This document shows positions 13,472 to 43,689 of a DNA stretch of 50,773 nt, piece after piece. Both the position numbers and the translations under genes were made by a program. Below the pieces are notes generated by a model. That model saw only the letters and a list, made by a program, of their open reading frames with translations, did no database searches and was not told the origin of the DNA. Source of the stretch: Muribaculaceae bacterium. Lineage in GTDB: Bacteria > Bacteroidota > Bacteroidia > Bacteroidales > Muribaculaceae. How positions within the stretch are numbered: the first letter of the stretch is position 1; every line of letters begins with the position of its first letter. The stretch spans positions 1-50,773 of the forward strand of contig JAFYYG010000053.1 of assembly GCA_017557625.1 (NCBI GenBank), read 5' to 3'.

Positions 13472-13966
13472 ATGAGAAATATTTTTAATATAATTGTACT
13501 GGTAGCATTACTGCCGCTTATCGTTTCGTGCGACTATATTGGGAAACTAAAAAAAAATGCGACAACAAGTAAAGTGCAAACTACAGCTAATTCCCCCAAA
13601 AATGGTAATGATTCCATCGGTATTACTAAATTGCCTAAGATCTCTAAGGATTACATAGAAAAGTATCTGCCTGATAAAGAAATTGCCAGAGTGATAGCTG
13701 CTGATGACGAGTTTAAAGTGTGGCTTTCTACTGGCGAGCAACTGGAATTTGATTTAGATGGTGGCATTCAGGAAATTGAATGTGCTGCAGGAATTCCAGA
13801 ATCTGTTATTGATGAACGAGTATTACAAGATGTTAGATTGATTGATTCGCATGCCCCAATTGTGAAAATTGAAAAAAAATCCAACGGAGACTATGAGGTA
13901 AAACTTAATAACGGCATGGAAATAGAATATGATGCCAGTTACAAGAGGATGGGGATTGATGACTAA
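13472..13966 (+). CDS. PepSY-like (DUF2874-type) lipoprotein
   Basis: From the ATG at 13472 the product is 164 residues; an upstream frame from 13430 adds 14 residues before the signal and is rejected. The signal peptide ends LLPLIVSC (Cys about 20), a lipobox. After a Lys/Asn/Ser linker come two repeats of the PepSY-like form: LPKISKDYIEKYLPDKEIARV with VIAADDEFKVWLSTGEQLEFD, and an IVKIEKKSNGDYEVKLNNG segment. Such proteins are common periplasmic or surface proteins in Bacteroidales; they resemble beta-lactamase inhibitor folds, but their role is unclear. The stop lies 6 bases before the radical SAM start, so they form one operon. Confidence 0.75.
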   Translation: MRNIFNIIVLVALLPLIVSCDYIGKLKKNATTSKVQTTANSPKNGNDSIGITKLPKISKDYIEKYLPDKEIARVIAADDEFKVWLSTGEQLEFDLDGGIQEIECAAGIPESVIDERVLQDVRLIDSHAPIVKIEKKSNGDYEVKLNNGMEIEYDASYKRMGIDD

Positions 13967-13972
13967 TGCCTA

Positions 13973-15043
13973 ATGGACCGCTCACAGCAAATAGCACTTG
14001 AGGCGGCAAGGCGTGAGAACGAGCGTTTGTGCCGTGAGCATCCCCTAGAGCAACTGTTCTGGGAGTGTACGCTGCGATGCAATCTCGCTTGCCGGCATTG
14101 CGGCAGCGACTGCGCCAAGGATTTGACTGCCACCGAGATGCCTCTGGAGCATCTCCTGCCTGTCCTTGACGAGATAGCTCAGCATCAGGACCCCGCCACT
14201 ATCATGGTTTCGACAGTGGGCGGCGAACCGCTAGTGCGTCATGACATTGTGGAGTGTGGTAGTGAGATAAAGAGGCGAGGTTTCCAATGGGGACTAGTCA
14301 CCAATGGTTATCTTCTTGACGAAAAGATGATGGATGCACTTGCCGAGGCAGGAATCGACAGCATGGCTGTGGACCTTGACGGCACCGCCACCGACCATAA
14401 CTGGCTGCGCAACAACCCTCACAGCTTTGACCGGGCTATGCGGGCCATAGACTTGATGAGGAAGGTCGATAACCTCGAGTGGGACGTGATTTCATGTATC
14501 AACTCGCGCAATATAAACCACCTTGACGAGATTAAACAAATTCTTATCGATGCTGGTGTGAAATACTGGCGATGCTTTACCATTGTGCCGATGGGTAGAG
14601 CGGCAGGGCTTGACGAACTGCAAATCACTGATGAACAGTTCCGTGACTTGCTCAACTTCATAGTCAAGACTCGAATCGAGCGAAAGATTGACCTCACCTA
14701 CGCCTGCGAGGGATTTCTAGGTGCTTATGAGGGAATGGTGCGCGACTATTTCTATTCCTGCGACGCCGGACTCACCGTGGCAAGCATACGCCACGATGGT
14801 GCCATCTCAGGATGTCTCAGCATTCGCAGCGACTACAATCAAGGCAATATCTACCGCGACAGCTTTTGGGACGTGTGGAACAACCGCTTCGAGAAATACC
14901 GCAACCGCGAGTGGATGAAAAAAGGCATCTGCACCGACTGCGAGATGTTCCGCTACTGCCAAGGCAACGGCTTCCACCTCCGCGACAGTAACGGCGACCT
15001 GATGCTCTGCCACTATAATAGGTTGAAGAATGTGAAACTATAA
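13973..15043 (+). CDS. Radical SAM/SPASM peptide-modifying enzyme
   Basis: The 356-residue product has the radical SAM cluster motif CNLACRHC (Cys36, Cys40, Cys43) in WECTLRCNLACRHCGSDC. A GGEP motif (VGGEPL) binds SAM. The C-terminal SPASM region has cysteines in FYSCDAG, ISGCLSI, GICTDCEMFRYCQGNG and MLCHY, enough for auxiliary [4Fe-4S] clusters. Such enzymes modify ribosomally made peptides. It closely resembles, from memory, the radical SAM member of the Bacteroidales rSAM/lipoprotein pairs (TIGR04133-type). Upstream is a PepSY-like lipoprotein; downstream, 14 bases away, are two tandem small proteins that are the likely substrates. The modification is unknown. Confidence 0.88.
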   Translation: MDRSQQIALEAARRENERLCREHPLEQLFWECTLRCNLACRHCGSDCAKDLTATEMPLEHLLPVLDEIAQHQDPATIMVSTVGGEPLVRHDIVECGSEIKRRGFQWGLVTNGYLLDEKMMDALAEAGIDSMAVDLDGTATDHNWLRNNPHSFDRAMRAIDLMRKVDNLEWDVISCINSRNINHLDEIKQILIDAGVKYWRCFTIVPMGRAAGLDELQITDEQFRDLLNFIVKTRIERKIDLTYACEGFLGAYEGMVRDYFYSCDAGLTVASIRHDGAISGCLSIRSDYNQGNIYRDSFWDVWNNRFEKYRNREWMKKGICTDCEMFRYCQGNGFHLRDSNGDLMLCHYNRLKNVKL

Positions 15044-15057
15044 GAAACCAAGATATT

Positions 15058-15660
15058 ATGAAAAAAGATAATAAAAATCGCCGCAAGGCTGCTCTCGGAG
15101 CAGTGATTGCTGCAGGGATGACAACGGGTGCTTTGGCGGTGTGTGCCGGGAATAGCGCAGGTGCTGCCAATGCCGAGCGGCCTGAGGTGGCCCTCACTGC
15201 AGCCGATATGGTGGTGATTGACGGCCAGGAGGTGAGTGTGAGGGACATGTCCTCTCCCGACAATAAACGACACAGACAGAATGTCGGAAAGAAAAAGACT
15301 ATGTATGGCCCTCGGCCTAAGATGTATGGTCCAAAGCCCTCCAGCCCCACACCTGAGCAACTGGAAAAGTCACAGGATAGGAGCGATTCTCTCATGATAA
15401 CCTATTATGTGAAAGATTTACTGATACTCGGGTTGCACTTGGACGTAATAGATTATGATAGTATCCCTGCTGAGGCACGCTTCGTGGAAGATCTGGGTGC
15501 CGATTCTCTCAACATTGAGAAAATTTTCAAGGCAGTGGAGGAAAAGTACGATATCATTATCCCCGATGAGAAACTAGACGAATTAACCACCGTTGGTCAA
15601 TTAATCCAATTCGTTCGGGAGGAAAAGAAAAGCAAGAGAAAGAATAACAATACATTATGA
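15058..15660 (+). CDS. Putative radical SAM substrate with MYGP motifs and an ACP-like domain
   Basis: The 200-residue product has three parts. Residues 1-30 form a twin-basic export or membrane signal (KNRRKAALGAVIAAG, with Cys29). Residues 41-100 hold the block EVALTAADMVVIDGQEV, then two MYGP motifs (82-85, 89-92) in a Lys/Pro-rich stretch. Residues 112-186 match an acyl carrier protein: FVEDLGADSLNIEKIF with the phosphopantetheine Ser at 150, then DIIIPDEKL and TTVGQLIQFV. A carrier domain behind an export signal is unusual. It lies 14 bases after the radical SAM gene and overlaps the next gene by 4 bases (ATGA). MYGP as the modification site is inference from its repetition. Confidence 0.7.
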   Translation: MKKDNKNRRKAALGAVIAAGMTTGALAVCAGNSAGAANAERPEVALTAADMVVIDGQEVSVRDMSSPDNKRHRQNVGKKKTMYGPRPKMYGPKPSSPTPEQLEKSQDRSDSLMITYYVKDLLILGLHLDVIDYDSIPAEARFVEDLGADSLNIEKIFKAVEEKYDIIIPDEKLDELTTVGQLIQFVREEKKSKRKNNNTL

Positions 15661-16214
15661 AAAAAGACAATAAAAACCGTCGCAAGGCGGCTATCGGGGC
15701 GGTGATTGCAGCCGGGATGACAGCGGGAACTATCGCAGCCTGTTCCGCCAATGAGGCGAAGTCTGAGCAAAGCGAGAAGCCCGACGTGGAACTATCTGCC
15801 GCCGATAAGGTGGTGGTTGATGGTCAGGAGATTGACTCTGCCAAATTGCTGCCACGTGACACCATTCGCGACGTGGTGCGGCCAATGTATGGCGTGCGCC
15901 AGAGGCCCATTCACCTGATGTATGGTCCTCGGCGTCCGCGTCCGGGGATTGTAAACCCTGATGACACGAATAATCCTGCTGCCATCGAGAGGCAGGTGAT
16001 GGAGGTCGTTTCCGCTACCCTTAACATAGAGCCGATGAATGTGCAGATTTCCTCAAAACTTAACGAGGATTTCAAAATCACCCAACAGCAGCGTGAGCAA
16101 CTCAAAACGGCTCTTGAGGACAAGTTCGGGGTCGTGATTTATGACGAGACATTCAATGTGATGAAGACAGTGGGCGACCTCGTCAACTGCATCTCTGTGT
16201 TGAAAAACGGTTGA
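15657..16214 (+). CDS. Second putative radical SAM substrate, degenerate ACP-like domain
   Basis: This 185-residue paralogue of the preceding protein has a nearly identical first 22 residues, also similar at DNA level. A better lipobox (IAAC, Cys29) follows, then the same block (VELSAADKVVVDGQEI, about 44-59) and two MYG motifs (77-79, 88-90, the second followed by PRRPRPG). The C-terminal domain aligns with an ACP (KLNEDFKITQQQREQLKTAL, then GVVIYDE and KTVGDLVNCI). The DSL motif is lost, with Thr142/Gln143 where Asp-Ser should be, so it cannot carry phosphopantetheine in the usual way. The active/inactive carrier pair is the oddest feature of this operon. Confidence 0.68.
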   Translation: MKKDNKNRRKAAIGAVIAAGMTAGTIAACSANEAKSEQSEKPDVELSAADKVVVDGQEIDSAKLLPRDTIRDVVRPMYGVRQRPIHLMYGPRRPRPGIVNPDDTNNPAAIERQVMEVVSATLNIEPMNVQISSKLNEDFKITQQQREQLKTALEDKFGVVIYDETFNVMKTVGDLVNCISVLKNG

Positions 16215-16372: not shown

Positions 16373-16382
16373 CTATATGATT

Positions 16383-17735
16383 ATGAGAAATGCTAAATAT
16401 ATTTTGATGCTTTTGCTGATGGCCACGGCTATGACCACGGCGATGGCACAGGTGGAATTTGGTGGCAACACCAAGCCGGTTTATGATGTGACACCTGAAT
16501 ACAACACCGGCCTCAACCACATCTATGTGCTTTATGAGGCGCAATGGGTGGCAATGACTTATACCGCTGCCGAGAATCCCGATGAGGTCACCTGGTACGA
16601 GTTTGGAGAGCAGGGCGGCGCATACGCCACCGAGGTGAGTGGCGTGGTGCGTAATGGCAACAAAACCATTCTGCCGCAAGTGACTGCCGACCGTGGATAT
16701 ATCATTGAGGAAGGTACTCGACGAACCTACATTTGGGTGGTGGATTACAGCAAGTACCGCCTCCTTCTCAACAGTGCCACAGTTGACCCAGAGAGCGACT
16801 GCGGCACTGCGACAATCCACGTTGACGGCTCGGGTCCCGACATTGTCTATTACACTATCAACGGCGGTCGCCGTGTGCTGGACCGAGAAATCAAAATCAT
16901 ATATAATACACTCGAGTGGAACTCTGAGGACAGAAGGTGGGACGAGACCGAGGTGGTTGAGACCGAGGCATCGTTTAAGAACGCTATGGCTGTGCCGGCA
17001 CCGTTGTGCAACACCACGTTCACTGTTGAGGGCGACAAGTTCCTTGAGTTTTGGAGAGAATATCAGAGCAAGACAACCGAGTCTTATACTGCAACCGCTG
17101 TTCGCGCCGAGACCACTGCCGAACAGGAAGAGCGCAACAACGACAACGAGCAGAATGCCAATGGCAGCGCTCTTGGTGGCTCGGCACCGGCAAAAATCAC
17201 GTTCACAGCCTATTGCACCGACGCCGTGTCGTTCAAGCAATGGCAGGTGAGCGATAACCCCGACTTCAACTACCTATTGATGGACTTCTCGCAGGAAGAG
17301 GTGGAATATACCTTTGAGGATGCAGGAACTACTTACTGGCGTTTCTATTATGCCAATAGCGACGGCACTTGCGAGGACTATAGCGAAACTTACACCGTTA
17401 ATATCGGAGTGAGCGACCTTGTGTGTCCAAACTTCTTCTCGCCAGGAACAACCGAAGATGTAAACGATGTGTGGAAGGTATCATACAAGTCAATCGTCGA
17501 TTTCCACTGCTGGATCTACAACCGCTGGGGCGTGCTCATAAAGGAGTTTACCGATCCCTCCGACGGTTGGGATGGAAAATACCATGGCAAGTTGGTGAGC
17601 ACAGGAGTATATTTCTATGTTGTGCAAGCCACTGGCAGTGATGGCAAGAAGTACAAACTTAGTGGTGACATCAATATCCTACACTACGAACGTCGCGACA
17701 TGGGCGGAGGTGGATACGAAGAACCCATGGAATGA
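16383..17735 (+). CDS. Secreted protein with gliding-motility-type C-terminal (T9SS type B) sorting domain
   Basis: The frame extends upstream, but the signal peptide MRNAKYILMLLLMATAM starts at 16383 (an ATG at 16377 is also possible), giving about 450 residues. The middle is Ig-like and beta-rich, with no catalytic motif. The last 85 residues match the gliding-motility-associated C-terminal domain: CPNFFSPGTTEDVNDVW, IYNRWGVLIKEF, GWDGKYHGKLVSTGVYFYVV and GDINILH. This domain directs secretion by the type IX system. No T9SS component is in this window. It is probably a surface or secreted structural protein; its role is unknown. Confidence 0.8.
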   Translation: MRNAKYILMLLLMATAMTTAMAQVEFGGNTKPVYDVTPEYNTGLNHIYVLYEAQWVAMTYTAAENPDEVTWYEFGEQGGAYATEVSGVVRNGNKTILPQVTADRGYIIEEGTRRTYIWVVDYSKYRLLLNSATVDPESDCGTATIHVDGSGPDIVYYTINGGRRVLDREIKIIYNTLEWNSEDRRWDETEVVETEASFKNAMAVPAPLCNTTFTVEGDKFLEFWREYQSKTTESYTATAVRAETTAEQEERNNDNEQNANGSALGGSAPAKITFTAYCTDAVSFKQWQVSDNPDFNYLLMDFSQEEVEYTFEDAGTTYWRFYYANSDGTCEDYSETYTVNIGVSDLVCPNFFSPGTTEDVNDVWKVSYKSIVDFHCWIYNRWGVLIKEFTDPSDGWDGKYHGKLVSTGVYFYVVQATGSDGKKYKLSGDINILHYERRDMGGGGYEEPME

Positions 17736-32308: not shown

Positions 32309-34216
32309 TCACATTCCTAACAGCATATTGTAGATAGCTGTGATGTCGGCACTGGTAATATAGCCGTCTCCGTCCACGTCGCCTTGAGGGAAATCGGTGT
32401 CGTTCTCGTTGAGAATGTAGTCGTAGAGGATTGTCACGTCGGCAGTTGACACCCAACCGTCGCCGTTTACATCAAGACGATCTATCAACGCATAATCCAC
32501 TTCAACAAAATGGGTGAAAGAACTCCACGGGCTTGTCGCTTGGTAGTCGCTCAGTGTGCCAACAGGGATATAAACGGTGCAAAGATCTCTTGGAACACCA
32601 TTGAACGTTGAGTAGTTGTGATTATTTGTTACATTTTGAGGGGATATTATTTTTGAACGAATTGACATCAAAGCTGTGCAACCTGTGAAAGGATATAAAC
32701 CAATCGTTGTAACTGAGTTTGGAATGGTCAACACGTTTATTCCACTGCAATAACCAAAAGCATAGTCTTCAATAGTTGTTACAGAGTTGGGAATAGTCAC
32801 CGAGGTCAAGGGCGTGCAGTTGTAGAAAGAATACTGCTTAATATTTGTCGTCGAATTTGGAATCAACAAATCTGTAACCTTGGTGCCATTGAGATAGAGA
32901 TTCTGGGCACAGTAGAGAGGATTACTTTGATAATTGCCAAAGTCAATATTACACCAGGCGGCAATGTCGCTGATGTTGACTCGGTTCAACCCAGCGCAAC
33001 TAAAGTAGGCTTGCTTACCAATTGAAGTAACGGTACTTGGGATTGTAGCTTGGGTTATGCTGGTGCAATTGACAAACGCATACTGCTTAATGCTTGTCAC
33101 CGAGCTTGGGATTGAAAGATGAGTAACCTTGGTGCCATTGAGATAGAGATTCTGTGCATAGTAGAGAGGATTACTTTGAAAATTGCCAAAGTCAATATTA
33201 CACCAGGCGGCAATGTCGCTGATGTTGACTCGGTTCAACCCAGTGCAACCATAGTAGGCTTGCTGACCAATTGACGTAACAGCACTTGGAATTGTCGCTT
33301 GGGTTATGCTTGTGCAATTGACAAACGCATATTGCTTAATGCTTGTCACCGAGCTTGGGATTGAAAGATGAGTAATCTTTGTGCCATTGAGATAAAGATC
33401 CTTGGCGTAGTACAAGGGGTTGTCAGTATTGCTGTCAAAATCAATATTGCACCACTTGGCCAGGTCACGTAAGTCTACTTTTGTCAATCCAGTGCAACCT
33501 TTGAAAGCATTGCTTCCTATTGATGTCACTGAATTGCCTATAGTAACAGAGGTCAAACCAGTTAAATTATTGCAGATGTAGGCAGGAATTTTCGCTACTG
33601 TGTTGCCGAAATTGAAAGTTTTAATATTGGTGAACCCAGAGAATGGGCTTCTACTGAAATCATTACAGTTGGTAGCATTCCAGTTCACTGTCGTCAATCC
33701 AGTGCAATTATCAAAGGCTGTATCTTGAATAGATGAAACCGAGTTGCCAATTGTTAATGAAGTCAATCCAGTGCAATTTTCAAATGATTTAAAATTTATT
33801 ATTCTCACTGAATTAGGTATAGTCAATGATTTTAGGCCACTACAATTTCGGAATGCTAAAGCTCCTATTATCTCCACCGAGTTTCCAAAGGTAACCGAAG
33901 TTAAACCTGTGCATCCAGAAAAACAGTTGCCTGAAATATATGTCACAGAGTTCGGAATGGTCAAAGATGTAATAGTAGTGCAGTAATTGAAGGCGTAGCT
34001 ACCAATCTTAGTTACCGTATAGGTCTTGCCACCGTTAGTGACACTGGAGGGAATGTTGAGCGCTCCACTTAGTTCACCGTATGCTGATACTACAGTTACA
34101 CTTGTGCCGTCGTCATTGATGTCATAGCATAAGTTCCCCGCGTAGAAGTCGTAGGCGGCGGCAGGCATCGATGCTGCCAATAACAACATAAGGAATGTTA
34201 ATAATTTAGGTCTCAT
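32309..34216 (-). CDS. BspA-like leucine-rich repeat surface protein with dockerin-like C-terminus
   Basis: The signal peptide MRPKLLTFLMLLLAASMPAAA sets the start at 34216 (635 residues); an upstream extension of 27 residues is rejected. The body is a run of LRR_5 (BspA/TpLRR) repeats of about 23 residues, of the form CTGLTSVTIPNSVTSIGxxAF, which form a solenoid used in adhesion. Two nearly identical 83-residue blocks lie in the middle. The last 55 residues hold two DVNGDG-type calcium-loop repeats (LDVNGDGWVSTADVT and GDVDGDGYITSADIT), a dockerin-like module. Its final 56 bases are identical to those of the next gene. Confidence 0.85.
   Translation of the reverse strand: MRPKLLTFLMLLLAASMPAAAYDFYAGNLCYDINDDGTSVTVVSAYGELSGALNIPSSVTNGGKTYTVTKIGSYAFNYCTTITSLTIPNSVTYISGNCFSGCTGLTSVTFGNSVEIIGALAFRNCSGLKSLTIPNSVRIINFKSFENCTGLTSLTIGNSVSSIQDTAFDNCTGLTTVNWNATNCNDFSRSPFSGFTNIKTFNFGNTVAKIPAYICNNLTGLTSVTIGNSVTSIGSNAFKGCTGLTKVDLRDLAKWCNIDFDSNTDNPLYYAKDLYLNGTKITHLSIPSSVTSIKQYAFVNCTSITQATIPSAVTSIGQQAYYGCTGLNRVNISDIAAWCNIDFGNFQSNPLYYAQNLYLNGTKVTHLSIPSSVTSIKQYAFVNCTSITQATIPSTVTSIGKQAYFSCAGLNRVNISDIAAWCNIDFGNYQSNPLYCAQNLYLNGTKVTDLLIPNSTTNIKQYSFYNCTPLTSVTIPNSVTTIEDYAFGYCSGINVLTIPNSVTTIGLYPFTGCTALMSIRSKIISPQNVTNNHNYSTFNGVPRDLCTVYIPVGTLSDYQATSPWSSFTHFVEVDYALIDRLDVNGDGWVSTADVTILYDYILNENDTDFPQGDVDGDGYITSADITAIYNMLLGM
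32877..33374 (-). repeat. 249-base tandem duplication inside the BspA-like gene
   Basis: Two adjacent units of 249 bases (83 codons), 32877-33125 and 33126-33374, are nearly identical. A third, more diverged unit follows at about 33375. The frame is kept, so copy number could vary without breaking the gene. Confidence 0.8.
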
Positions 34217-34319
34217 ATATAAGCAATTAAAGTGATTAAATCTATGAAATGGCCTTATAATAAAGTTGATAGTTAACAAGATTTTGTTTGGTGTCACTGA
34301 GATTGTGTGTTATCTATTA

Positions 34320-36839
34320 TCACAGTCCCAGCAGCATGTTGTAGATAGCTGTGATGTCGGCACTGGTAATATAGCCGTCTCCGTCCACGTCGCCGTTGAC
34401 GATGTGGCTGCTGTCGTTGGTAAGCATAAAGTCATAGAGCATTGTCACGTCGGCACTTGACACCCAACCGTCGCCGTTCACATCAAGCTGTTCAATTAAC
34501 TCATAATCAATCTCAACAATATTATAGAAATATTTCCAATGTGATATAGACTGATATAAACTAAGAGTGTTTTTAGGAACATAAACTCTACATGTTTTTG
34601 GCGAACCATAAAATATTGAAGAGTCATGACCAGTGTATGACACATTTTGAGGAGCTGTGAGTTTTGAACGGATTGTTGAGAGCCCAGTACAGCCATTAAA
34701 AGCGGCATAACCGAACGAGGTTATTGAATTAGGTATAGTTAACAAACTCATCCCGGTACATTGTGAAAAAGCACGCGTACCAATTGTGGTCACCGAACTT
34801 GGAATGCTCAACGAGGTCAAACCACTACATTCTGAAAATGCATAGGAGTAAATAGTGGTAACTGAATTGGGAATGTTCAACGAAGTTAAGCCGCTGCAAC
34901 CTGAGAAAGCATATGAACCAATTGAGGTTACTGAGCTGGGAATAGTCAATGAATTCAAGCCACTGCAACCATAGAAGGCACTGCCGCCAATCGAAGTCAC
35001 CGAGTTTCCGATGGTGACCGAGGTCAAGCCATAGCAAGAATTAAAAGTATTGTCGCCGATCTCTGTCACCGAGTTGGGGATGGCGACCGAGGTTAAGCCA
35101 CTGCAACCATGGAAGGCAGAATTGCCAATTGTTTTCACCGAGCTTGGAATTGCAATAGAACTCAATCCAGAGCAATAACTAAAAGCCCATGAGTCAATCG
35201 AAGTCACCGAACTGGGAATAGTCACCGAGGCCAGGCCGCTGCAACCATTGAAAGCAGCATTGCCTATCGAGGTTACCGAATTTGGTATAGTCACTGAAGT
35301 TAATCCGCTTAATCCACTACACAAATAAGCTGGAATCCTTTTTACCGTGCTACCAAACACGATCGACGTTATATTGCTCAGATTCTTAAAAGGAGAGGAT
35401 GTGAAATCACCAGAGTTTGCGGCATTCCAATTCACTGTCTTCAAATTGCTACAACCAGTAAAGGTCTGATCACCTATCGACACCAATGAGCTGGGGATTG
35501 TCAATTTAGTTATACATGTGCAATTATAAAACGCATAGGATTTTATGGTTGTAACACCACTCGGAATAGAAAGGTTGGTGATTTTAGTGCCATTAAGATA
35601 GAGATTTTTAGCATAGAATAAAGGATTATTCCTGTCGCTACTAAAATTAATATTGCACCAGGCAGCAAGGTCACTGATATCTATTCTATTTAAATTTTCA
35701 CAACCATAGAAAGCGTTATTTCCAATCTCGGTCACTGAGTTTCCCATTGTCAACGAAGTCAAACCTGTGAGATCAGAAAACAGTCGTGAAGGTATCCTAG
35801 TCACATTGTTTCCAATAACAATCTTTTTGATTGAAAGATCATTATAGAATGGCATAGAACTATATGAATAGTTTGGGAGATCGGGACAGTTGGTTGCATT
35901 CCAATTTACAGTAGCTAGACTGCTGCAACCTTCGAATGCCGAATGTCCAAGTTCTGACAGCGAGCTGCCTATAGTAACAGTGGTTAAGTCTGTGCATTTA
36001 TAAAAGGCAATAAATTCAATTGTTGTTACCGAATTAGGAATTGTCACCGACTTCAATCCTGAATAAGAAAAAGCTTGCACGCCAATCGATGTTACTGAAT
36101 TAGGAATGGTGACTGACGTCAAAGCAGTACAACCTGTAAATGCCTTTTCTGTAATAGTTTTTACTGAATTGCCTATTGTCGCCGAGGTTATGCCTGTACA
36201 ATTGCTAAAGGCGCTCCAACCAATTTCGGTCACCGAGTTGGGAATTGTGACAGTCTTTAAGCCGTTGCAATACATGAAGGCACCGCTACCTATTGTCTTC
36301 ACTGTACTTGGAATGGTCAATTGTGTCATATTACAACCTGCAAAAGTATATTTCTTTATATTAGTAATTGAACTAGGAATAGTTAGACTGGTCACTTTAC
36401 TGCCATTGACATATAGATTCTTTGCAAAATATAATGGATTACTCCAATAACCATCGAAATCAATATTGCACCATTTAGCAAGGTCGCTGATGTTCACTTT
36501 TGTCAGCCCATCACACCCAAAAAAAGCGTCACCGCCCATCGAAGTCACTGATGTAGGGATAGTTACCGACGTCACGTTAGCACATCTTTCGAATGCCGAT
36601 TCACCAATTGCTTTCACCGAGTAGGTTTTACCACTGTAAGTAACACTGGAAGGAATTGTCAAAGCACCACTTAGGCTATTGTATGATGGGTTGTTACTTG
36701 AGTTTTCATAAGTGACCGTGACGCTATTACCGTCGCTGTTTTTATTGTAGCACAGCCCGTTGACCATAAAGTCATAAGCACTAGCAGGCATCGCCATCGC
36801 TGTTATCACCAAGAGCAAAGTAAGTAATCTGGTTTTCAT
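34320..36839 (-). CDS. BspA-like leucine-rich repeat surface protein with dockerin-like C-terminus
   Basis: The 839-residue product has a signal peptide (MKTRLLTLLLVITAMAMPASA). About 28 LRR_5 repeats follow, of the form CSGLTSVTIPNSVTSIGxxAF, with two inserted segments of the form ISDLAKWCNIDFD...NPLYFAKNLYVNGSKVT. The C-terminal segment (about 745-780, YVPKNTLSLYQSISHW) is the usual capping region. The last 55 residues form a two-repeat dockerin-like module (LDVNGDGWVSSADVT, GDVDGDGYITSADIT). It is a paralogue of the gene at 32309-34216 and lies 103 bases upstream of it on the same strand. Confidence 0.86.
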   Translation of the reverse strand: MKTRLLTLLLVITAMAMPASAYDFMVNGLCYNKNSDGNSVTVTYENSSNNPSYNSLSGALTIPSSVTYSGKTYSVKAIGESAFERCANVTSVTIPTSVTSMGGDAFFGCDGLTKVNISDLAKWCNIDFDGYWSNPLYFAKNLYVNGSKVTSLTIPSSITNIKKYTFAGCNMTQLTIPSTVKTIGSGAFMYCNGLKTVTIPNSVTEIGWSAFSNCTGITSATIGNSVKTITEKAFTGCTALTSVTIPNSVTSIGVQAFSYSGLKSVTIPNSVTTIEFIAFYKCTDLTTVTIGSSLSELGHSAFEGCSSLATVNWNATNCPDLPNYSYSSMPFYNDLSIKKIVIGNNVTRIPSRLFSDLTGLTSLTMGNSVTEIGNNAFYGCENLNRIDISDLAAWCNINFSSDRNNPLFYAKNLYLNGTKITNLSIPSGVTTIKSYAFYNCTCITKLTIPSSLVSIGDQTFTGCSNLKTVNWNAANSGDFTSSPFKNLSNITSIVFGSTVKRIPAYLCSGLSGLTSVTIPNSVTSIGNAAFNGCSGLASVTIPSSVTSIDSWAFSYCSGLSSIAIPSSVKTIGNSAFHGCSGLTSVAIPNSVTEIGDNTFNSCYGLTSVTIGNSVTSIGGSAFYGCSGLNSLTIPSSVTSIGSYAFSGCSGLTSLNIPNSVTTIYSYAFSECSGLTSLSIPSSVTTIGTRAFSQCTGMSLLTIPNSITSFGYAAFNGCTGLSTIRSKLTAPQNVSYTGHDSSIFYGSPKTCRVYVPKNTLSLYQSISHWKYFYNIVEIDYELIEQLDVNGDGWVSSADVTMLYDFMLTNDSSHIVNGDVDGDGYITSADITAIYNMLLGL

Positions 36840-36861
36840 GATTGTAATGTTTTGATTTTTG

Positions 36862-36869
36862 CAAAGTTA
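36862..36869 (-). promoter_or_regulatory. -7 box of the minus-strand BspA-like gene
   Basis: On the minus strand TAACTTTG (36862-36869, read CAAAGTTA on plus) lies 23 bases before the ATG at 36839. The -33 box is unclear. The remaining gap to 37080 is AT-rich and shows no gene. Confidence 0.45.
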
Positions 36870-37082
36870 ATGAATATTTTTTAGTTGGCAGTGATTAGTC
36901 ATCAATTTTAAAATAAAAACTACTAAAATTTGTAGTTGATATGGAAACCCTCATGCGTTTTATTGTGAGATGAGCTTTTTCAATTTTGCGTTATTTGCGA
37001 TAGATTTCAATTATTTTGCGTGAGATTCAAAAAACACTATTTTTAGATAAATTAGGTGTCGCCTCGGAAAAACTCAAATAAA

Positions 37083-37182
37083 TTTGTTTTTTCTCTTATC
37101 TTGCACTATTTTTGTAGCATAAAAACTGACACCAAACATAGATATGAAGAAATACTACATTTTGCCTTTGGCAGCTCTATAA
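37083..37182 (+). pseudogene. Promoter and start remnant resembling the DPP IV gene
   Basis: TTTG (37083-37086), 20 bases, TATTTTTG (37107-37114), then a leader and an ATG at 37144 opening MKKYYILPLAAL before a stop at 37182. The promoter, the AAAAACTxACACC leader and the first codons match those of the DPP IV gene at 43897-43975 (MKKYILPVVAAVL). It is a start without a gene: a duplication scar, or a short leader ORF for the next gene, which has no promoter of its own in sight. Confidence 0.6.
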
Positions 37183-37286
37183 GATATGCTGCTTATCAAC
37201 GACTACACCCATGACTGATAGTATACTCGCTCTTTTTGCTCTCTTATGCTGTCAAGAAATAATTACAATAATAATATAATAAAGCT

Positions 37287-40200
37287 ATGAAACAGAAAAT
37301 TTTACTTACTCTGATTTGTGCGCTGGCAGGAGCACTCAGCGCCCTGGCTGCCAATGTCCCTTATGCGCTATATAGCGGCAACCAAACCATTCTCACCTTC
37401 TACTACGGCGAGAAGCCCAATGGGGCGTATCCTATTGATGATAGTTCTGATCCAGCATGGCATGTCAATGGTACTTACAGTAATGTGCTTCATGTAGTCT
37501 TCGACCCATCTTTTGCCCAAGCGAGGGTCAAAAGTACCTGTGCGTGGTTTCTCGACATGGATAAACTCCTTTCCATTGACGGACTTAATTATTTGAATAC
37601 CGAGGAAGTAACCGACATGGGCTGGATGTTTTCTGGTTGTGCTAAGCTCACCACCTTGGATTTGAGCCACTTCAACACCAGCAAGGTCAAACGAATGATA
37701 GCCATGTTCCAGAATTGCAAAAAACTGACCAGCATTGATTTGAGCAGTTTCAACACAAGTAATGTAGAAAAAATGCAATTTATGTTTAATGGTTGTAATG
37801 TGTTGGGTAACTTAGATGTAAGTGGTTTCAATACTTCGAATGTAACCAATATGGCCTCCATGTTCACGTTTTGCAAAGCTTTTACCAGTTTGAATCTTGT
37901 CAGCTTTAACACAAGCAAGGTGACCAATATGAGTAGGATGTTCTATGGCTGCGAAATGCTTGAGACAATCTATGCAGGTGTGGGATGGAGCACGGGCGCT
38001 GTGAATGAGGGAAACGAGATGTTCTCTGTTTGCACCAGACTCAAGGGCGGAGCCGGCACCACATTTAATCCGGATTATGTGGACTTCTACTATGCGCGCA
38101 TCGATGGTGGCCCCAGTAGTCCAGGCTATTTCACAGGCCGACAGCCAGAGGTTGTATACAATGCTAATACCAAAACCCTCACATTCTACAACGATGGGAA
38201 CACCCATAGCGGCGATGTGGGTCTCCTGCCCTCGAGCAACACCACACGGCCATGGTGGTCACAGGACACCAATGTGAGCTCCAATGTGCAGAAGGTGGTC
38301 TTCCATCCCTCGTTTGCATCCGTTCACCACACCAGCGGCTACTACTGGTTTGCAGGCATGACCAACCTCACCAGCATTGAGGGGATGGAATACTTCAACA
38401 CCGACGAGATGGTGAACATGAACAGCATGTTCAACGACTGCCGTAAACTCACAAGCCTTGACCTTAGCCATTTCGACACTGGCAAAGTGACAAAAATGAG
38501 CTACATGTTCTTCAACTGCAACAACCTTACAGAGCTTGATTTGACTCCGTTTAGCACTTCATTGGTGACCACTATGGAAGACATGTTTGCGAGCTGCAGC
38601 AAGCTCACCAAATTGAACCTCGGCAACTTCAATACCGCTAAAGTGACCGACATGACCGCCATGTTCAGCGGTTGCTCGATGCTCACCACTATCAATGTCG
38701 ACGGCGATCTGTGGAATACCAATGCCGTAACTCAGTCAAGCTCTATGTTCCGCAACTGCACCAGCATCAAGGGCTGCATGGGCACCACCTATAATGCCAA
38801 CCATATTGACAAGGCTTATGCGCATATCGATGGCGGTTCCAGCAATCCAGGTTACCTTTCTGGCAAGATTGAAGGCTATGCTATGTGGGATGCGACACTC
38901 AAAAGACTCACCTTCTACTACGACGATATTTATGACCAACGAGACAAACCTGTCTATTTCATCAACTCAGATTTATTTCATGTCGTCCCTGATTGGTTTA
39001 CCAATGAAATATCCACAAATGCGACGCAAGTGGTATTCGACCCCTCGTTTGCCGATGCCCGCCCGACTATGACGAGATATTGGTTCTACAGTATGACGAA
39101 CCTTCGCAGCATCACGGGGTTAGAGTACCTCAATACCAGCGAGGTGACCAATATGACTTACATGTTTTGCGACTGCAGTAGTCTCTCCAGCCTTGATCTG
39201 AGCCACTTCAATACTAGCAAGGTGCTTAATATGGCTTACATGTTTCATGGCTGCAAGCAATTGACAGGACTGGATTTGAGCAGTTTCAACACCACCCAGG
39301 GCCCCGCCATGTTAGCCATGTTCTCTGACTGCGAAAACCTGGTCACCATTGTGGTGGGTTATGATTGGAGTACAGGTCAGGTGACAAGTTCAGAAGGAAT
39401 GTTCAATAATTGCGTTAATATTCTGGGCTGCAAGGGAACTAAATACAATCCCGCACATGTCGACAAACTGTATGCGCGCATCGACCGCGGTTCAAGCAGT
39501 CCGGGCTACCTGAGCGACGCTATGCCCCGCGGCTTCAGGTACGAGGGCATATGGTACGACAATGGCGTGGTCATAGCACCGCAGCATGGCGACAAATATA
39601 CCGGCGAAGTGGTGATCCCCGCCAAGTTCGTCTACAAGAACAGGACCTACAATGTGACGCACATCGAGGCTGGCGCCTTCACCGGAACATCGGTCACCAG
39701 GGTTGACCTGCCGGCAACCATCAACTGGATAGAGGCTGGAGCTTTCACCAATGCCACACAGCTCAAGAAACTGGTCATCGGATACGCCTCCTTGCCTTCC
39801 TATGTCAATTATGAGCAAAACTTCACCAGCGGCAACGCCAGCGGTTTCGCCTGCTATGTGCACAACAGTCAGTTGAGTAGGTTTGAGAGTGCCTATACTA
39901 ACATCAACTTTGCTCCCTGGGTGCAGATTTCAGAGGACTATTACACCGAACTCAAACCATACCGCCCGTTCTCGTGCAAGTATAAGACCGTGATGCCCAG
40001 TGGCCTGGAGGCCTACTATGTGAAAGGCTACAACAGTAGTACGCGCACGGCCCAGACCCAGAAGGTGACGGGCATCGTGCCTGCCAGCACGGGCCTGCTG
40101 CTCAAGGGCAAGGAATGCAAGATTTATCTGCTTGAAAAGTCGAGCGGCACCGCTGCTACAGTCACGGGCAATCTGCTCAAACCCTATCTGTCGGCAGCCG

Positions 40201-40550
40201 ACTCGCCAGTAGGCGTGCAGGACGATAACGCACGCTTCTACTTCAATGTGATGGACATGTGGTGGGAATCGACGGTGAACCTGTCGCTTGGCAGCTCCTA
40301 TCTGTGCATTCCCAAGAGCCAGGTGGGCAGCGACCTGACCTCGCCTGTATTGCTCGACCTCGAGAATTCAAGCGGAATGCTAGGCGACGTGAACGGCGAT
40401 GGCAATGTCACCGCAGCCGATGTTACTGCTCTCTACGACTTCTTGCTCAACAACGACAGTTCACACATCGTCAATGGCGACCAAAACGGTGACGGCAACA
40501 TCACCGCTGCCGATATCACCGCTGTTTACGACGTATTGCTGAGCAATTAG
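37287..40550 (+). CDS. Large BspA/DUF285-type surface protein with dockerin-like C-terminus
   Basis: The 1087-residue product has a signal peptide (about 1-21). Three large blocks follow (about 24-285, 286-525, 526-745). Each opens with a LTFYY-type strand and a VVFDPSFA motif, and runs on as DUF285 repeats of 24-25 residues (LDLSHFNTSKVTNMSYMFxGC). A short LRR_5 part (about 765-860), a linker domain (YYTELKPYRPFSCKY onward) and a two-repeat dockerin-like module (GDVNGDGNVTAADVT, GDQNGDGNITAADIT) end it. The DUF285 repeats occur in surface proteins of host-associated bacteria. The repeated blocks point to internal duplication. Confidence 0.87.
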   Translation: MKQKILLTLICALAGALSALAANVPYALYSGNQTILTFYYGEKPNGAYPIDDSSDPAWHVNGTYSNVLHVVFDPSFAQARVKSTCAWFLDMDKLLSIDGLNYLNTEEVTDMGWMFSGCAKLTTLDLSHFNTSKVKRMIAMFQNCKKLTSIDLSSFNTSNVEKMQFMFNGCNVLGNLDVSGFNTSNVTNMASMFTFCKAFTSLNLVSFNTSKVTNMSRMFYGCEMLETIYAGVGWSTGAVNEGNEMFSVCTRLKGGAGTTFNPDYVDFYYARIDGGPSSPGYFTGRQPEVVYNANTKTLTFYNDGNTHSGDVGLLPSSNTTRPWWSQDTNVSSNVQKVVFHPSFASVHHTSGYYWFAGMTNLTSIEGMEYFNTDEMVNMNSMFNDCRKLTSLDLSHFDTGKVTKMSYMFFNCNNLTELDLTPFSTSLVTTMEDMFASCSKLTKLNLGNFNTAKVTDMTAMFSGCSMLTTINVDGDLWNTNAVTQSSSMFRNCTSIKGCMGTTYNANHIDKAYAHIDGGSSNPGYLSGKIEGYAMWDATLKRLTFYYDDIYDQRDKPVYFINSDLFHVVPDWFTNEISTNATQVVFDPSFADARPTMTRYWFYSMTNLRSITGLEYLNTSEVTNMTYMFCDCSSLSSLDLSHFNTSKVLNMAYMFHGCKQLTGLDLSSFNTTQGPAMLAMFSDCENLVTIVVGYDWSTGQVTSSEGMFNNCVNILGCKGTKYNPAHVDKLYARIDRGSSSPGYLSDAMPRGFRYEGIWYDNGVVIAPQHGDKYTGEVVIPAKFVYKNRTYNVTHIEAGAFTGTSVTRVDLPATINWIEAGAFTNATQLKKLVIGYASLPSYVNYEQNFTSGNASGFACYVHNSQLSRFESAYTNINFAPWVQISEDYYTELKPYRPFSCKYKTVMPSGLEAYYVKGYNSSTRTAQTQKVTGIVPASTGLLLKGKECKIYLLEKSSGTAATVTGNLLKPYLSAADSPVGVQDDNARFYFNVMDMWWESTVNLSLGSSYLCIPKSQVGSDLTSPVLLDLENSSGMLGDVNGDGNVTAADVTALYDFLLNNDSSHIVNGDQNGDGNITAADITAVYDVLLSN

Positions 40551-40608
40551 TTTGCCGTGATTCGTCGCGGTTATTTCAAACAACTCTCACAACATCTTAA
40601 CAACTTAA

Positions 40609-40632
40609 AACAATAAAATAATTGTTGTTTTT
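40609..40632 (+). terminator. Weak terminator-like hairpin
   Basis: AACAAT/ATTGTT (40609-40614 with 40621-40626) followed by GTTTTT. AT-rich and weak. The following 40627-40660 is TTGTTG-rich low complexity. Confidence 0.35.
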
Positions 40633-40707
40633 GTTGTCAGCTTGTTGTGTTTGTTGTTTTATATACTGTGGGCGGCGATATAAATATACAAAAAATATTG
40701 TCCTTTA

Positions 40708-40738
40708 TTGTGTGACTGCCAAAAAATCACTATATTTG
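40708..40738 (+). promoter_or_regulatory. Promoter of the third BspA-like gene
   Basis: TTG (40708-40710), 20 bases, TATATTTG (40731-40738). The leader to the ATG at 40786 is about 40 nt. Confidence 0.55.
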
Positions 40739-40785
40739 CATTCTAAATCATTAACGGACAACACTAACACAAAAATATTACGAAA

Positions 40786-43689
40786 ATGAAGAAATTACCA
40801 TTACTCCTTCTCATGACGCTCTTTGCCATGACGGCAAGTGCCTATACTTACAATGTTAACGTTGAGATAGGCAACTTCAAGTACTCTCAACTCGGCTTGG
40901 CCACTTCGTCAGGCGAGGAGAATTATGCTTTTCTGAGTGGTCTATCCAGTACAGCAAGCACTTCGCTCACGACGCTCGACATCCCGGGCTATGTGGTTTA
41001 TAACGGCGAGCGCTACCGTGTCAAGCAAATCAATCAAGATGCGTTTCACAACAACACCAAGATTACTAATGTCACCTTTGGCTACGGTGTGGAATATATC
41101 AGCAGTTATGTCTTTGACGGTTGCACCAATCTAAAAACAGTGAACCTGCCAAGTTCGGTGAAGGAAATCGGGCAGTTCGTGTTCCAGAACTGCAGCAGTC
41201 TTATGATTGTGGCTTTTGCCGGTGACGTGGCACCAAAGATATATGACTACACCTTCAACCTGTCGAGTACGACAAAGCGTGCATCCACGGCGACCTATCG
41301 CGGCATGAACGCCCTGAAGGCCGACGCCAAGTGGGTGGCGGCTTTTGGCGCCAGCAACATCCTGCGCCATTATAGTTACAAGGTTGGCGATTTCAAGGTT
41401 TACAATTCCACCCACGGCTGCTGGCAATATTATACCATCAAGAACGGCATCCCCTATAACAGCAACAGCAGCAATCCGTCGGTGCGCTCTTCGTGTGTGC
41501 TGGTGGGTGCCACCTTTGTCGACGACACCGACTATACTGTCACTTTACCGCAAAGTGTAGGTAATTATGACAACAATTCTCCGGGCACTTATAAGTTCTA
41601 TGGCGTTGCCGACAGCGCGTTCATGAACAATACAGCTATCACCGATATTTATGAAAGCAACACTATGGCTTATAAGATAGGCATTAGAGCGTTTTATGGT
41701 TGCACAAACCTAACATATGCTAATGTGCCGGTTGATACCATCGATAATTATGCGTTTTTTGGCTGTACTAAACTAGTTTCGGTCGATCTTTATAACTTTA
41801 ATTTGGGTACAGGCCCGGTGAGAATAGGAGGCTATGCTTTTGGAAATTGTGGCTTTAAAACTGTGGCATTACCTAAGAGTGTCATGACATTAGGCTATGC
41901 GCCATTCTACAACAACACCTCGTTGACCTCAATCGCCGTCGATGGCGAAAACACCAAATTTTGCAGTTGGAAAGGCGCTCTGTATGATTACTCTAAGAAG
42001 TGGCTTTATCAAATTCCTGGCAAGTGGTCTCATAATGGATACTATGGTTCTTTTGCCGAGACGCTCGAACGAGTGCTTGCATACGCAGGAGCTGGGAGTA
42101 ATTTATATGAACTATATTTGCCTTATAATGTAAAAACTATTGACCAATATGCATTCCAGAACTGTACCGGCTTATCAACTGTGCACATACCTTCGTCGGT
42201 GACAACTGTAAGCACAAACGCTTTCCAAGGTTGCTCCGCAATTCGTCATATTCATCTCAACTTATTGACACCACCTACTTTCGACTACTTCCCTTCGGTG
42301 ACTGATAAGAGCATTGTGGAGTTTTTCACGCCTTATGAAGCCTATTCAGCCTATGCCAGCAGTTCCATCTGGTCGCAATATAACCGTTGTACCGGCACTT
42401 CCGACCACACTAATTGCTGGGATATACAGGCAGAAGGTGTGCGCTTTACAGTGTTGACAACATCTCCCTATTACTTTAATTCATTCTCAAGCGATGGCAC
42501 GGTGAAAATTGTTTGGCTTCCAGCCGGCAACATTGTACTACCTTTGACTATAAGCTATGGAGGCAAGACTTATATGCCCACCGAGGTTGGATATCGTGCG
42601 GCCTTTTATCCTTCCAACACCACTGGCTTCTCTCAGGGTTCCTATAGATCCAGCATTCTTAAAATCCATGATTATGCTTTTGCCAACACTCAGCTTCAAA
42701 GTTTCAAGTTTGAGAGTGTTGAGGAGATTGGAGAGGGAGCGTTCCAGAACACGACATATATGGTTGATGAGTTGTCTTTAAGTAAATTGAGGAATTTAAA
42801 AACTATAGGTAATCGAGCATTCTATAATTCTGGAATAACAAAGTTTGAGCCACACACCTCATTGACTAAAATCGGGAATTATGCCTTTTACAATTGTAGC
42901 AATCTTCATGAGATTTTCCTGCCACACATCGATGGCAGGGATCCTATCACCTGCGGCCAGAGCTTTTTTGGTGGCAACCTTGCCAGCGACTTTAAGTGCT
43001 GGGTTGACTACCGTCGCCTGGGCGACTTTGTGAATACCTCTAATTGGGATGTTTCCAAGGTTTATCCACATCTACATTTTGATTATGGAGGTTACAACGA
43101 TGACGAGTGGATGGCAATTGCCTGTGTCAAGCCCCTCAGCTTTGAGGGAACCGGTGTGGATGCCTATACTATGACCAATTTTAACCAGAATACCAAAACA
43201 GCTACCCTGGAGCCCATCACTAGTGTGGCAGCCAACAACGGAGCTTTGTTGCATGGCAAAGGAAGTACCTACTACCGCCTGAATTATGCCTCAAGTGGCA
43301 CTACGTGCTTATGGCTACAGGTCGTGACTGGTTCATCGCAGACTGTAACCACTGACAACACAACAACCTATTATCATTTCGGAAACACCGCCCCAAGATT
43401 CATTAAAGTGGGTGGTAGCACAACATTTACTCGTGGCCACTCTTACCTCAAGCTTGGCAATAGTGTGTGCGGAGGAGAATATTTTATCGAAACCAACCTA
43501 AGTAACACGGCTGTTCCTGGCGACGTGAACGGCGACGGCAACGTCACGGCTGCCGATGTGACCGCGCTCTACGACTTCCTGCTCAGTGGTGACACCACCA
43601 ACCTTGTTAATGGCGACCAGAACGGCGACGGCAACATCACCAGCGCCGACGTGACAGCGGTCTACGACATCCTTTTGGGTGTTAACTAA
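40786..43689 (+). CDS. BspA-like surface protein with dockerin-like C-terminus
   Basis: The 967-residue product has a signal peptide (MKKLPLLLLMTLFAMTASA). LRR_5 repeats (for example CTNLKTVNLPSSVKEIGQFVFQNC) are set in several larger irregular blocks, with short SSIWSQYNRCTG-like caps. The region about 765-900 (DEWMAIACVKPLSFEGTGVDAY, then GALLHGKGSTYYRL) matches in layout the linker domain of the preceding gene's product. The last 55 residues form a two-repeat dockerin-like module (GDVNGDGNVTAADVT, GDQNGDGNITSADVT). Its role is likely adhesion or protein capture on the cell surface. Confidence 0.85.
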   Translation: MKKLPLLLLMTLFAMTASAYTYNVNVEIGNFKYSQLGLATSSGEENYAFLSGLSSTASTSLTTLDIPGYVVYNGERYRVKQINQDAFHNNTKITNVTFGYGVEYISSYVFDGCTNLKTVNLPSSVKEIGQFVFQNCSSLMIVAFAGDVAPKIYDYTFNLSSTTKRASTATYRGMNALKADAKWVAAFGASNILRHYSYKVGDFKVYNSTHGCWQYYTIKNGIPYNSNSSNPSVRSSCVLVGATFVDDTDYTVTLPQSVGNYDNNSPGTYKFYGVADSAFMNNTAITDIYESNTMAYKIGIRAFYGCTNLTYANVPVDTIDNYAFFGCTKLVSVDLYNFNLGTGPVRIGGYAFGNCGFKTVALPKSVMTLGYAPFYNNTSLTSIAVDGENTKFCSWKGALYDYSKKWLYQIPGKWSHNGYYGSFAETLERVLAYAGAGSNLYELYLPYNVKTIDQYAFQNCTGLSTVHIPSSVTTVSTNAFQGCSAIRHIHLNLLTPPTFDYFPSVTDKSIVEFFTPYEAYSAYASSSIWSQYNRCTGTSDHTNCWDIQAEGVRFTVLTTSPYYFNSFSSDGTVKIVWLPAGNIVLPLTISYGGKTYMPTEVGYRAAFYPSNTTGFSQGSYRSSILKIHDYAFANTQLQSFKFESVEEIGEGAFQNTTYMVDELSLSKLRNLKTIGNRAFYNSGITKFEPHTSLTKIGNYAFYNCSNLHEIFLPHIDGRDPITCGQSFFGGNLASDFKCWVDYRRLGDFVNTSNWDVSKVYPHLHFDYGGYNDDEWMAIACVKPLSFEGTGVDAYTMTNFNQNTKTATLEPITSVAANNGALLHGKGSTYYRLNYASSGTTCLWLQVVTGSSQTVTTDNTTTYYHFGNTAPRFIKVGGSTTFTRGHSYLKLGNSVCGGEYFIETNLSNTAVPGDVNGDGNVTAADVTALYDFLLSGDTTNLVNGDQNGDGNITSADVTAVYDILLGVN

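Follow-up and report, generated by a model that had tools for sequence, protein, structure and literature searches.

A TIGR04133 radical SAM enzyme and two modular YG-bearing candidate substrates in a Muribaculaceae genome

We analyzed a 50,773-nucleotide contig of a Muribaculaceae bacterium (JAFYYG010000053.1; this whole stretch is called the window below) and focused on four genes at 13472-16214, all on one strand, which encode a PepSY_like lipoprotein, a radical S-adenosylmethionine (SAM) enzyme with a SPASM domain, and two small paralogous proteins. We read this locus, with a little less than even confidence, as a TIGR04133 protein-modifying enzyme and two modular substrates, in which a Tyr-Gly (YG) site would be edited by splicing of the PlpX type and a C-terminal end domain would position or present the edited site. 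Sequence comparison established the modular make-up of the two proteins, the constancy of YG, the linkage to the radical SAM gene, and a distant kinship of the enzyme to the PlpX and GDL group. The features of the locus are as follows (ORF, open reading frame; ACP, acyl carrier protein).

13472..13966, + strand: PepSY_like lipoprotein (PF11396, E 2.4e-12), accessory and not core
13973..15043, + strand: TIGR04133 radical SAM/SPASM maturase with a CNLACRHC motif and a C-terminal SPASM domain (TIGR04133 match; PF04055 and PF13186; tree; motif alignment)
15058..15660, + strand: candidate substrate-family protein 1 (ORF1), with a leader, a linker with two MYGP sites, and an intact-looking ACP domain
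15058..15240, + strand: ORF1 leader, residues 1-61, with a basic N-terminus, a hydrophobic segment, and LTAAD-x-VVIDGQE (family profile A3; near-invariant columns among 74 members)
15304..15330, + strand: ORF1 YG sites, Tyr83-Gly84 and Tyr90-Gly91
15400..15654, + strand: ORF1 ACP domain, DSL with Ser150 at codon 15505-15507 (PF00550; model confidence; Foldseek)
15657..16214, + strand: candidate substrate-family protein 2 (ORF2), with leader and linker as in ORF1 and a degenerate ACP domain in which Thr142-Gln143 replace Asp-Ser
15888..15926, + strand: ORF2 YG sites, Tyr78-Gly79 and Tyr89-Gly90
15975..16208, + strand: ORF2 degenerate ACP domain (phmmer to the PDB ACP 2ehs; Foldseek)

The enzyme matched TIGR04133 at 511.5 bits, above the curated cut-off of 425. 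The two genes behind it overlap each other by 4 bases, and their products share 38-39% identity. Both proteins begin with a basic start, an Ala/Gly-rich hydrophobic segment, and a (T/S)AAD..DGQE block, which reads LSAAD-x-VVVDGQE in ORF2. Each carries two XYG motifs; three of the four sites are MYGP and one is MYGV.

To define the family, we used a leader profile (A3) of 22 sequences, which also includes the YG columns. The profile matched in 48 of the 101 genomes of the window's genus, while among 295 genomes sampled over the order only the window's own genome matched. By this measure the family is genus restricted and consists of a leader, a Pro-rich YG linker, and a swappable end domain. 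Including the window, we counted 74 family proteins at 49 loci (31 single, 12 double, 5 triple, and 1 quadruple), leaving out one locus (L162, genome G807) that matched only via its ACP part. Because the loci come from related metagenome-assembled genomes (MAGs), these counts are not independent events. A TIGR04133-type gene was found at 47 of the 49 loci, and at 45 of those 47 the first family gene begins 10-164 bases past the end of the radical SAM match (321 and 1201 bases at the others). One exception, L204, is cut by a contig end; the other, L160, is weighed below.

YG lies between the leader block and the end domain in 71/71 full-length copies, whereas the residue before it (X) varies among M, V, R, K, and L. 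The leader block of the same 71 copies is TAAD in 47, TAAE in 17, TAAQ in 4, and TVAD, TAAN, or SAAD in one each. When all 74 members were aligned, the three truncated copies included, Ala49 was the sole invariant column and Y-G was near-invariant. In our alignment A1 the invariance of TAAD and YG is partly circular, because its ORFs were picked for TAAD and YG, and we placed weight on the profile search instead. A member on the same contig as L207, at L051, lacks both the hydrophobic segment and the ACP domain and keeps EITAADEVQID and LYGPP beside a radical SAM gene. Truncated family copies stand next to full-length ones at L188:4239, L188:4796, and L204:119. A 344-residue member at L181:5852-6883 (- strand) has two TonB_C-like units, the second after a TAAN block and RYGP, and appears to be two substrates fused together.

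We then considered TIGR04133 enzymes more widely. The model matched in 69 of the 295 sampled genomes of the order at E<=1e-60, in 61 of them above the cut-off. Out of 110 TIGR04133 loci (L004-L113), 90 had enough flank to be scored and 20 had too little. A neighbor was scored if it was a same-strand ORF within 1.4 kb with a hydrophobic N-terminus and either xYG(0-2)P or YAxP(1-2)P, a pattern chosen after the sequences had been read. Such a neighbor of the radical SAM gene was present at 84 of the 90 loci, against 1/90 on the other strand and 0/47 in distal stretches. Outside the window's clade the count was 67/72, and by origin it was 26/27 in the sampled genomes, 41/45 in other public MAGs or genomes, and 17/18 in the window's clade. 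At one of the six loci without a scored neighbor, L035, the partners extend past the 1.4-kb limit. The bodies of the partners vary (TIGR04134 type, coiled coil, short tails, ACP, TonB_C), and YG and the hydrophobic N-terminus are what they have in common.

Of the 69 genomes with TIGR04133, 38 also had TIGR04134 above its cut-off, another 8 had weaker matches, and 23 had none at E<=1e-5; over all 295 genomes, TIGR04134 passed its cut-off in 39. Partners of other types are therefore common. ORF1 and ORF2 belong to these, as neither matched TIGR04134 (cut-off, 39.8 bits) at E<=1 and their own assembly had no match at E<=1e-5; a positive control, a protein of L005, scored 127.8 bits. The window thus resembles a TIGR04133/TIGR04134 pair in its enzyme and in the hydrophobic N-terminus and YG with Pro nearby of its partners, and it departs from such a pair in that the partners miss TIGR04134 and have a TAAD block and an ACP-like domain (TonB_C in relatives). 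In the radical SAM tree, the window's clade is nested within TIGR04133 among plain YG lipoprotein loci, so the carrier fusion looks derived. Its sister is a second TIGR04133 locus of the same genome (L127:4646-6709), where three consecutive small lipoprotein-like YG genes stand directly upstream of the radical SAM gene; two of the three encode VYGPP, and they have no carrier domain. On a plasmid of Treponema saccharophilum (L214), a TIGR04133 radical SAM gene stands with an annotated lipoprotein gene, whose product has CYGMP immediately behind its lipobox; a serine DNA invertase gene lies nearby, and the pair perhaps reached this spirochaete by horizontal spread. No paper turned up in literature searches by TIGR04133, by TIGR04134, or by the families' NCBI names, and searches by splicing terms and by ACP, lipoprotein, and TonB combinations found no title or abstract start on this substrate family.

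The C-terminal domains of the two window proteins were compared with known carriers. ORF1 matched PF00550 at 31.2 bits, passing the gathering cut-off of 20.8, and TIGR00517 at 57.6 bits, under the cut-off of 70.45. ORF2 scored 15.2 bits against PF00550, under the same gathering cut-off, and by phmmer it alone matched ACPs in the PDB with an E value of 1.7e-5 (2ehs); profile A1 matched them at 2.8e-14. In AlphaFold2 models of both ORFs, the C-terminal domains had a predicted local distance difference test (pLDDT) score mostly >90, with block means >90 over residues 111-190 of ORF1, and the N-terminal parts were of low confidence. Foldseek placed the models on solved ACPs with template modeling scores (TMt) of up to 0.91 for ORF1 and 0.93 for ORF2. 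ORF1 keeps VEDLGADSL with Ser150 as the phosphopantetheine-accepting serine, and ORF2 has Gln143 at that position. Taken together, the models and the sequence matches confirm a carrier fold in both proteins, intact-looking in ORF1 and degenerate in ORF2. We ruled out ORF2 as a decaying gene, because the mean ratio of nonsynonymous to synonymous substitution rates (dN/dS) of its group is low in all three regions (0.09-0.17).

Much of this architecture had been proposed in an earlier note made from the sequence alone. The SPASM radical SAM gene followed by two overlapping tandem paralogues, the two MYG(P) motifs and shared DGQE block in each, the ACP domain with Ser150, and the same fold with Thr/Gln in ORF2 were all borne out, and structure prediction did return a carrier-fold match for the C-terminal region of ORF1. 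The four genes that it took for a unit do share a strand; however, a PepSY homologue was seen at just 8 of the 47 related radical SAM loci, so they are only partly a unit.

Across the family, the end domain is ACP-like in 52 of the 74 copies and TonB_C in 18, and 4 copies are truncated or domain-less. Scanned singly, 18/74 copies matched Pfam TonB_C (best E 1.3e-35) and 29/74 matched PF00550 at E<=0.01. The A1 ACP-region profile matched 52/52 ACP-like and 0/18 TonB_C copies, a partly circular result since some of these copies are in A1. Only 10 of the 52 ACP-like copies keep DS[LI], which is absent in 42, and the phosphopantetheine column is Ser in 14. On the radical SAM tree, the DSL state requires at least 7 changes, 2 of them forced by starred branches, which is read most simply as an ancestral working carrier that was repeatedly lost. 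Mean dN/dS of the ACP region was 0.21 and 0.15 in two DSL groups (4 and 3 usable pairs) and 0.17 in the degenerate group (9 usable pairs). Carrier regions are therefore under constraint whether DSL is present or absent, and the fold appears to serve a purpose other than the phosphopantetheine arm. At each two-copy locus of the window's close type (the window, L148, L182, and L184), there is one DSL copy and one degenerate copy. Given the scarcity of DS[LI], the swap for TonB_C, and the domain-less copy, with YG kept throughout, we conclude from these comparisons that leader and YG are the constants of the family and the carrier is a passenger. The scarcity of DS[LI] and the replacement by TonB_C rule out a carrier-centered function for the whole family; carrier function is possible for ORF1, whose Ser150 may be phosphopantetheinylated in the cytosol.

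To place the enzyme, we compared it with TIGR04103, which we take to be PlpX's own family (a review names IPR026482). The window enzyme aligned to TIGR04103 with 127.5 bits (E 4.9e-37), far under the cut-off of 725. In the tree, TIGR04133 forms one clade and is split, together with nif11-3/GDL-like rows, from three outgroup rows with a Shimodaira-Hasegawa-like approximate likelihood ratio test (SH-aLRT) value of 96. The motif HCGS occurs in 9/9 TIGR04133 rows and 8 of the 10 nif11-3/GDL-like rows shown, and G-[FY]-x-G-x-x-E in 9/9 and 4 of the 10; the MftC, TIGR04053, and AhbD-like rows of the motif alignment have neither. Based on these alignments, the TIGR04133 enzyme is distant kin of the PlpX/GDL group. 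A nif11-class maturase 3 gene on a Nostoc plasmid adjoins the gene for a Nif11 precursor with the C-terminal end GGRGSIALYGLPPELF (ALYGLPPELF). PlpX is described as acting with a partner, PlpY (PMC11002830, PMC10373908), and PlpXY as cutting out tyramine at XYG, naturally MYG and LYG, with a loss of 135.0757 Da (PMC10533398). When PIRP-X-YGLPI tags were placed in FtsZ, splicing occurred in two constructs only, both with GYG, and did not occur with the LYG tags listed in the part of the table consulted (PMC10533398).

Like the spliceotide systems (PlpX/PlpY with PlpA precursors), the window thus has a homologous radical SAM enzyme, an XYG substrate motif, and a folded domain joined to the core. 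In contrast, its enzyme falls far short of TIGR04103, no PlpY-like gene was recognized among its four genes, and its candidate substrates have hydrophobic N-termini and a C-terminal folded domain instead of a Nif11/NHLP leader. TIGR03913 (GDL-motif) enzymes and their DUF1843 partners fall in the same supported larger group, and these small partners have LYG, PYG, LYA, or MYA near the N-terminus; however, those read are 54-70 residues long and lack a hydrophobic N-terminus or carrier domain. TIGR04069, a peptide maturation system acyl carrier-related protein, is alike by name in joining an ACP-like protein to peptide maturation. It matched a protein of L042 weakly (E 1.7e-4, 22/70 bits); the window proteins did not match it at E<=1. 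Two loci of the PlpX-related group were noted for their neighbors: L118:2955-3599, beside a TIGR04103-like radical SAM gene, encodes six C-terminal KYGYP repeats and matched no Pfam family, and on a Tropicibacter plasmid (L212) a PlpX-related radical SAM gene overlaps a gene for a trypsin-like peptidase, and an M23 peptidase gene comes next.

We propose the following mechanism. The leader (basic start, Ala/Gly-rich hydrophobic segment, and TAAD..IDG) would be both the recognition element and an export signal or anchor, and the radical SAM enzyme would act on XYG in the cytosol, before export. We are less sure of the product: PlpX-type excision of tyramine would leave an alpha-ketoamide in the Pro-rich linker. 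By analogy with PlpX, we put tyramine splicing at YG at slightly under even odds; its signature would be a loss of C8H9NO (135.08 Da) at YG. The modified protein would then be exported or anchored in the membrane, where the C-terminal domain, ACP-like here and TonB_C in relatives, might anchor, position, or present the modified linker. Such a ketoamide might act as a protease inhibitor or react with amines or thiols of the envelope; spliceotides are described as protease inhibitors (PMC11117315). The genome has a TatC gene; we do not claim twin-arginine translocation (Tat), because only 13/71 copies have an RR pair.

Splicing at YG is put forward as a prediction, and several observations weigh against it. 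Of the 131 motif sites in other TIGR04133 clades, 53 have Glu as X, and Glu is not among the natural PlpXY sites named in the part of the paper seen (PMC10533398). Outside TIGR04133, heme b synthase (1.9e-44) was the best NCBIfam match of the enzyme and outranked TIGR04103, and the tree has three long branches as outgroups, with the nif11-3/GDL-like rows holding together at only 57. Among 16 TIGR04103/TIGR03913-like loci, a YG neighbor was clear at 6 (L114, L116, L118, L210, L211, and L218), doubtful at 2 (L120 and L212), and not seen at 8 (L115, L117, L119, L121-L124, and L213), some of which have MYL or MYS. General scans of the four window genes recognized no PlpY-like gene; no PlpY profile was run. 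Export was judged by eye, and besides the few RR pairs a lipobox-like pattern occurs in 11/71 full-length copies. Finally, both proteins of L160 (genome G821) keep YG in an assembly with no TIGR04133 match at E<=1e-60. We had considered L160 as a locus that lost the TAAD block and dropped this argument because TAAE and TAAQ copies occur mostly beside intact radical SAM genes; only its TVAD copy is odd.

An enzyme-substrate system could also carry out other Tyr-centered chemistry at the same site, such as a C-C or C-O crosslink to a neighboring residue, a cyclophane, or an oxidation or dehydrogenation. We consider this possible, though well short of an even chance. It would account for the lack of a recognized PlpY gene and for the minority of PlpX/GDL-like loci with a clear YG neighbor, and the window enzyme aligns to the mycofactocin, PqqE, Wgk, and dynobactin maturase models too. 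A Pro separated from G by one residue (113 of the 131 sites in other clades) or by two (16 of the 131), a spacing set by construction of the pattern, could also shape a turn. However, no fixed crosslink partner is visible, because X and the residues past YG vary widely, and XYG is what PlpXY requires. That the YG proteins are no substrates at all, and that the operon of the enzyme merely includes genes for structural lipoproteins or mini-TonB-like anchors, strikes us as improbable. A leader, a Pro-rich linker, and TonB_C do resemble a small TonB, and the orphan locus L160 keeps YG without the enzyme; against this, otherwise unrelated bodies (ACP, TonB_C, TIGR04134, and coiled coil) share the YG site beside the radical SAM gene.

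The earlier note had put the carrier at the center, with the ORF1 ACP bringing an acyl or peptidyl group to MYG and ORF2 as a degenerate partner or decoy. The intact motif of ORF1, its fit to solved ACPs, the constraint on its ACP region (0.21, from 4 usable pairs), and the pairing of a DSL with a degenerate copy at four loci speak for this model. However, most ACP-like copies lack DS[LI], TonB_C replaces the carrier domain in 18 copies, L051/L207 is domain-less, and YG is kept in all full-length copies; nor was an acyl-loading enzyme found among the window's four genes, in a search limited to those and not extended to other neighbors. We therefore set the carrier aside as the point of the system, and think such a delivery role unlikely for ORF1 itself. 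The note fared better on MYG as the likely modified site, which gains support from the constancy of YG in the linkers and from the YG neighbors of TIGR04133 enzymes, and of the YG and Ser150 columns it wished to see aligned across genomes, the one is kept in all full-length copies and the other is Ser in a minority of ACP-like copies. Family loci lacking a radical SAM gene, which would have told against the note, were nearly absent (L204 ends with its contig, and L160 keeps YG). The TIGR04133-type pair that it named held for the enzyme and the YG-bearing partners, and TIGR04134, one of the models it wished to see searched, failed to match them.

Other genes of the window were noted in passing. 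A type IX secretion system (T9SS) type B sorting-domain protein is encoded directly downstream, at 16377-17735; among the 47 radical SAM loci, 18 have a homologue of this sorting-domain protein, 17 have one of MltD, and 16 have one of RluA. The stretch 32309-43689 encodes four leucine-rich repeat proteins of the BspA type, and all four have a type I dockerin match at the C-terminus.

Taken together, the comparison gives TIGR04133 a testable site, YG, and a product mass. The likely substrates of this enzyme family extend beyond TIGR04134, and one site is carried on unrelated folded domains. A bolder picture, in which full-length exported proteins of rumen Bacteroidales are backbone spliced at YG to bear alpha-ketoamide electrophiles, exchange TonB_C and ACP as end domains, and, for ORF1, are charged with phosphopantetheine in the cytosol and exported folded, is a long shot; if true, a single envelope protein would combine a ketoamide warhead with a thiol arm. 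If the splicing itself is true, envelope proteins that bear a ketoamide would be widespread among Bacteroidales.

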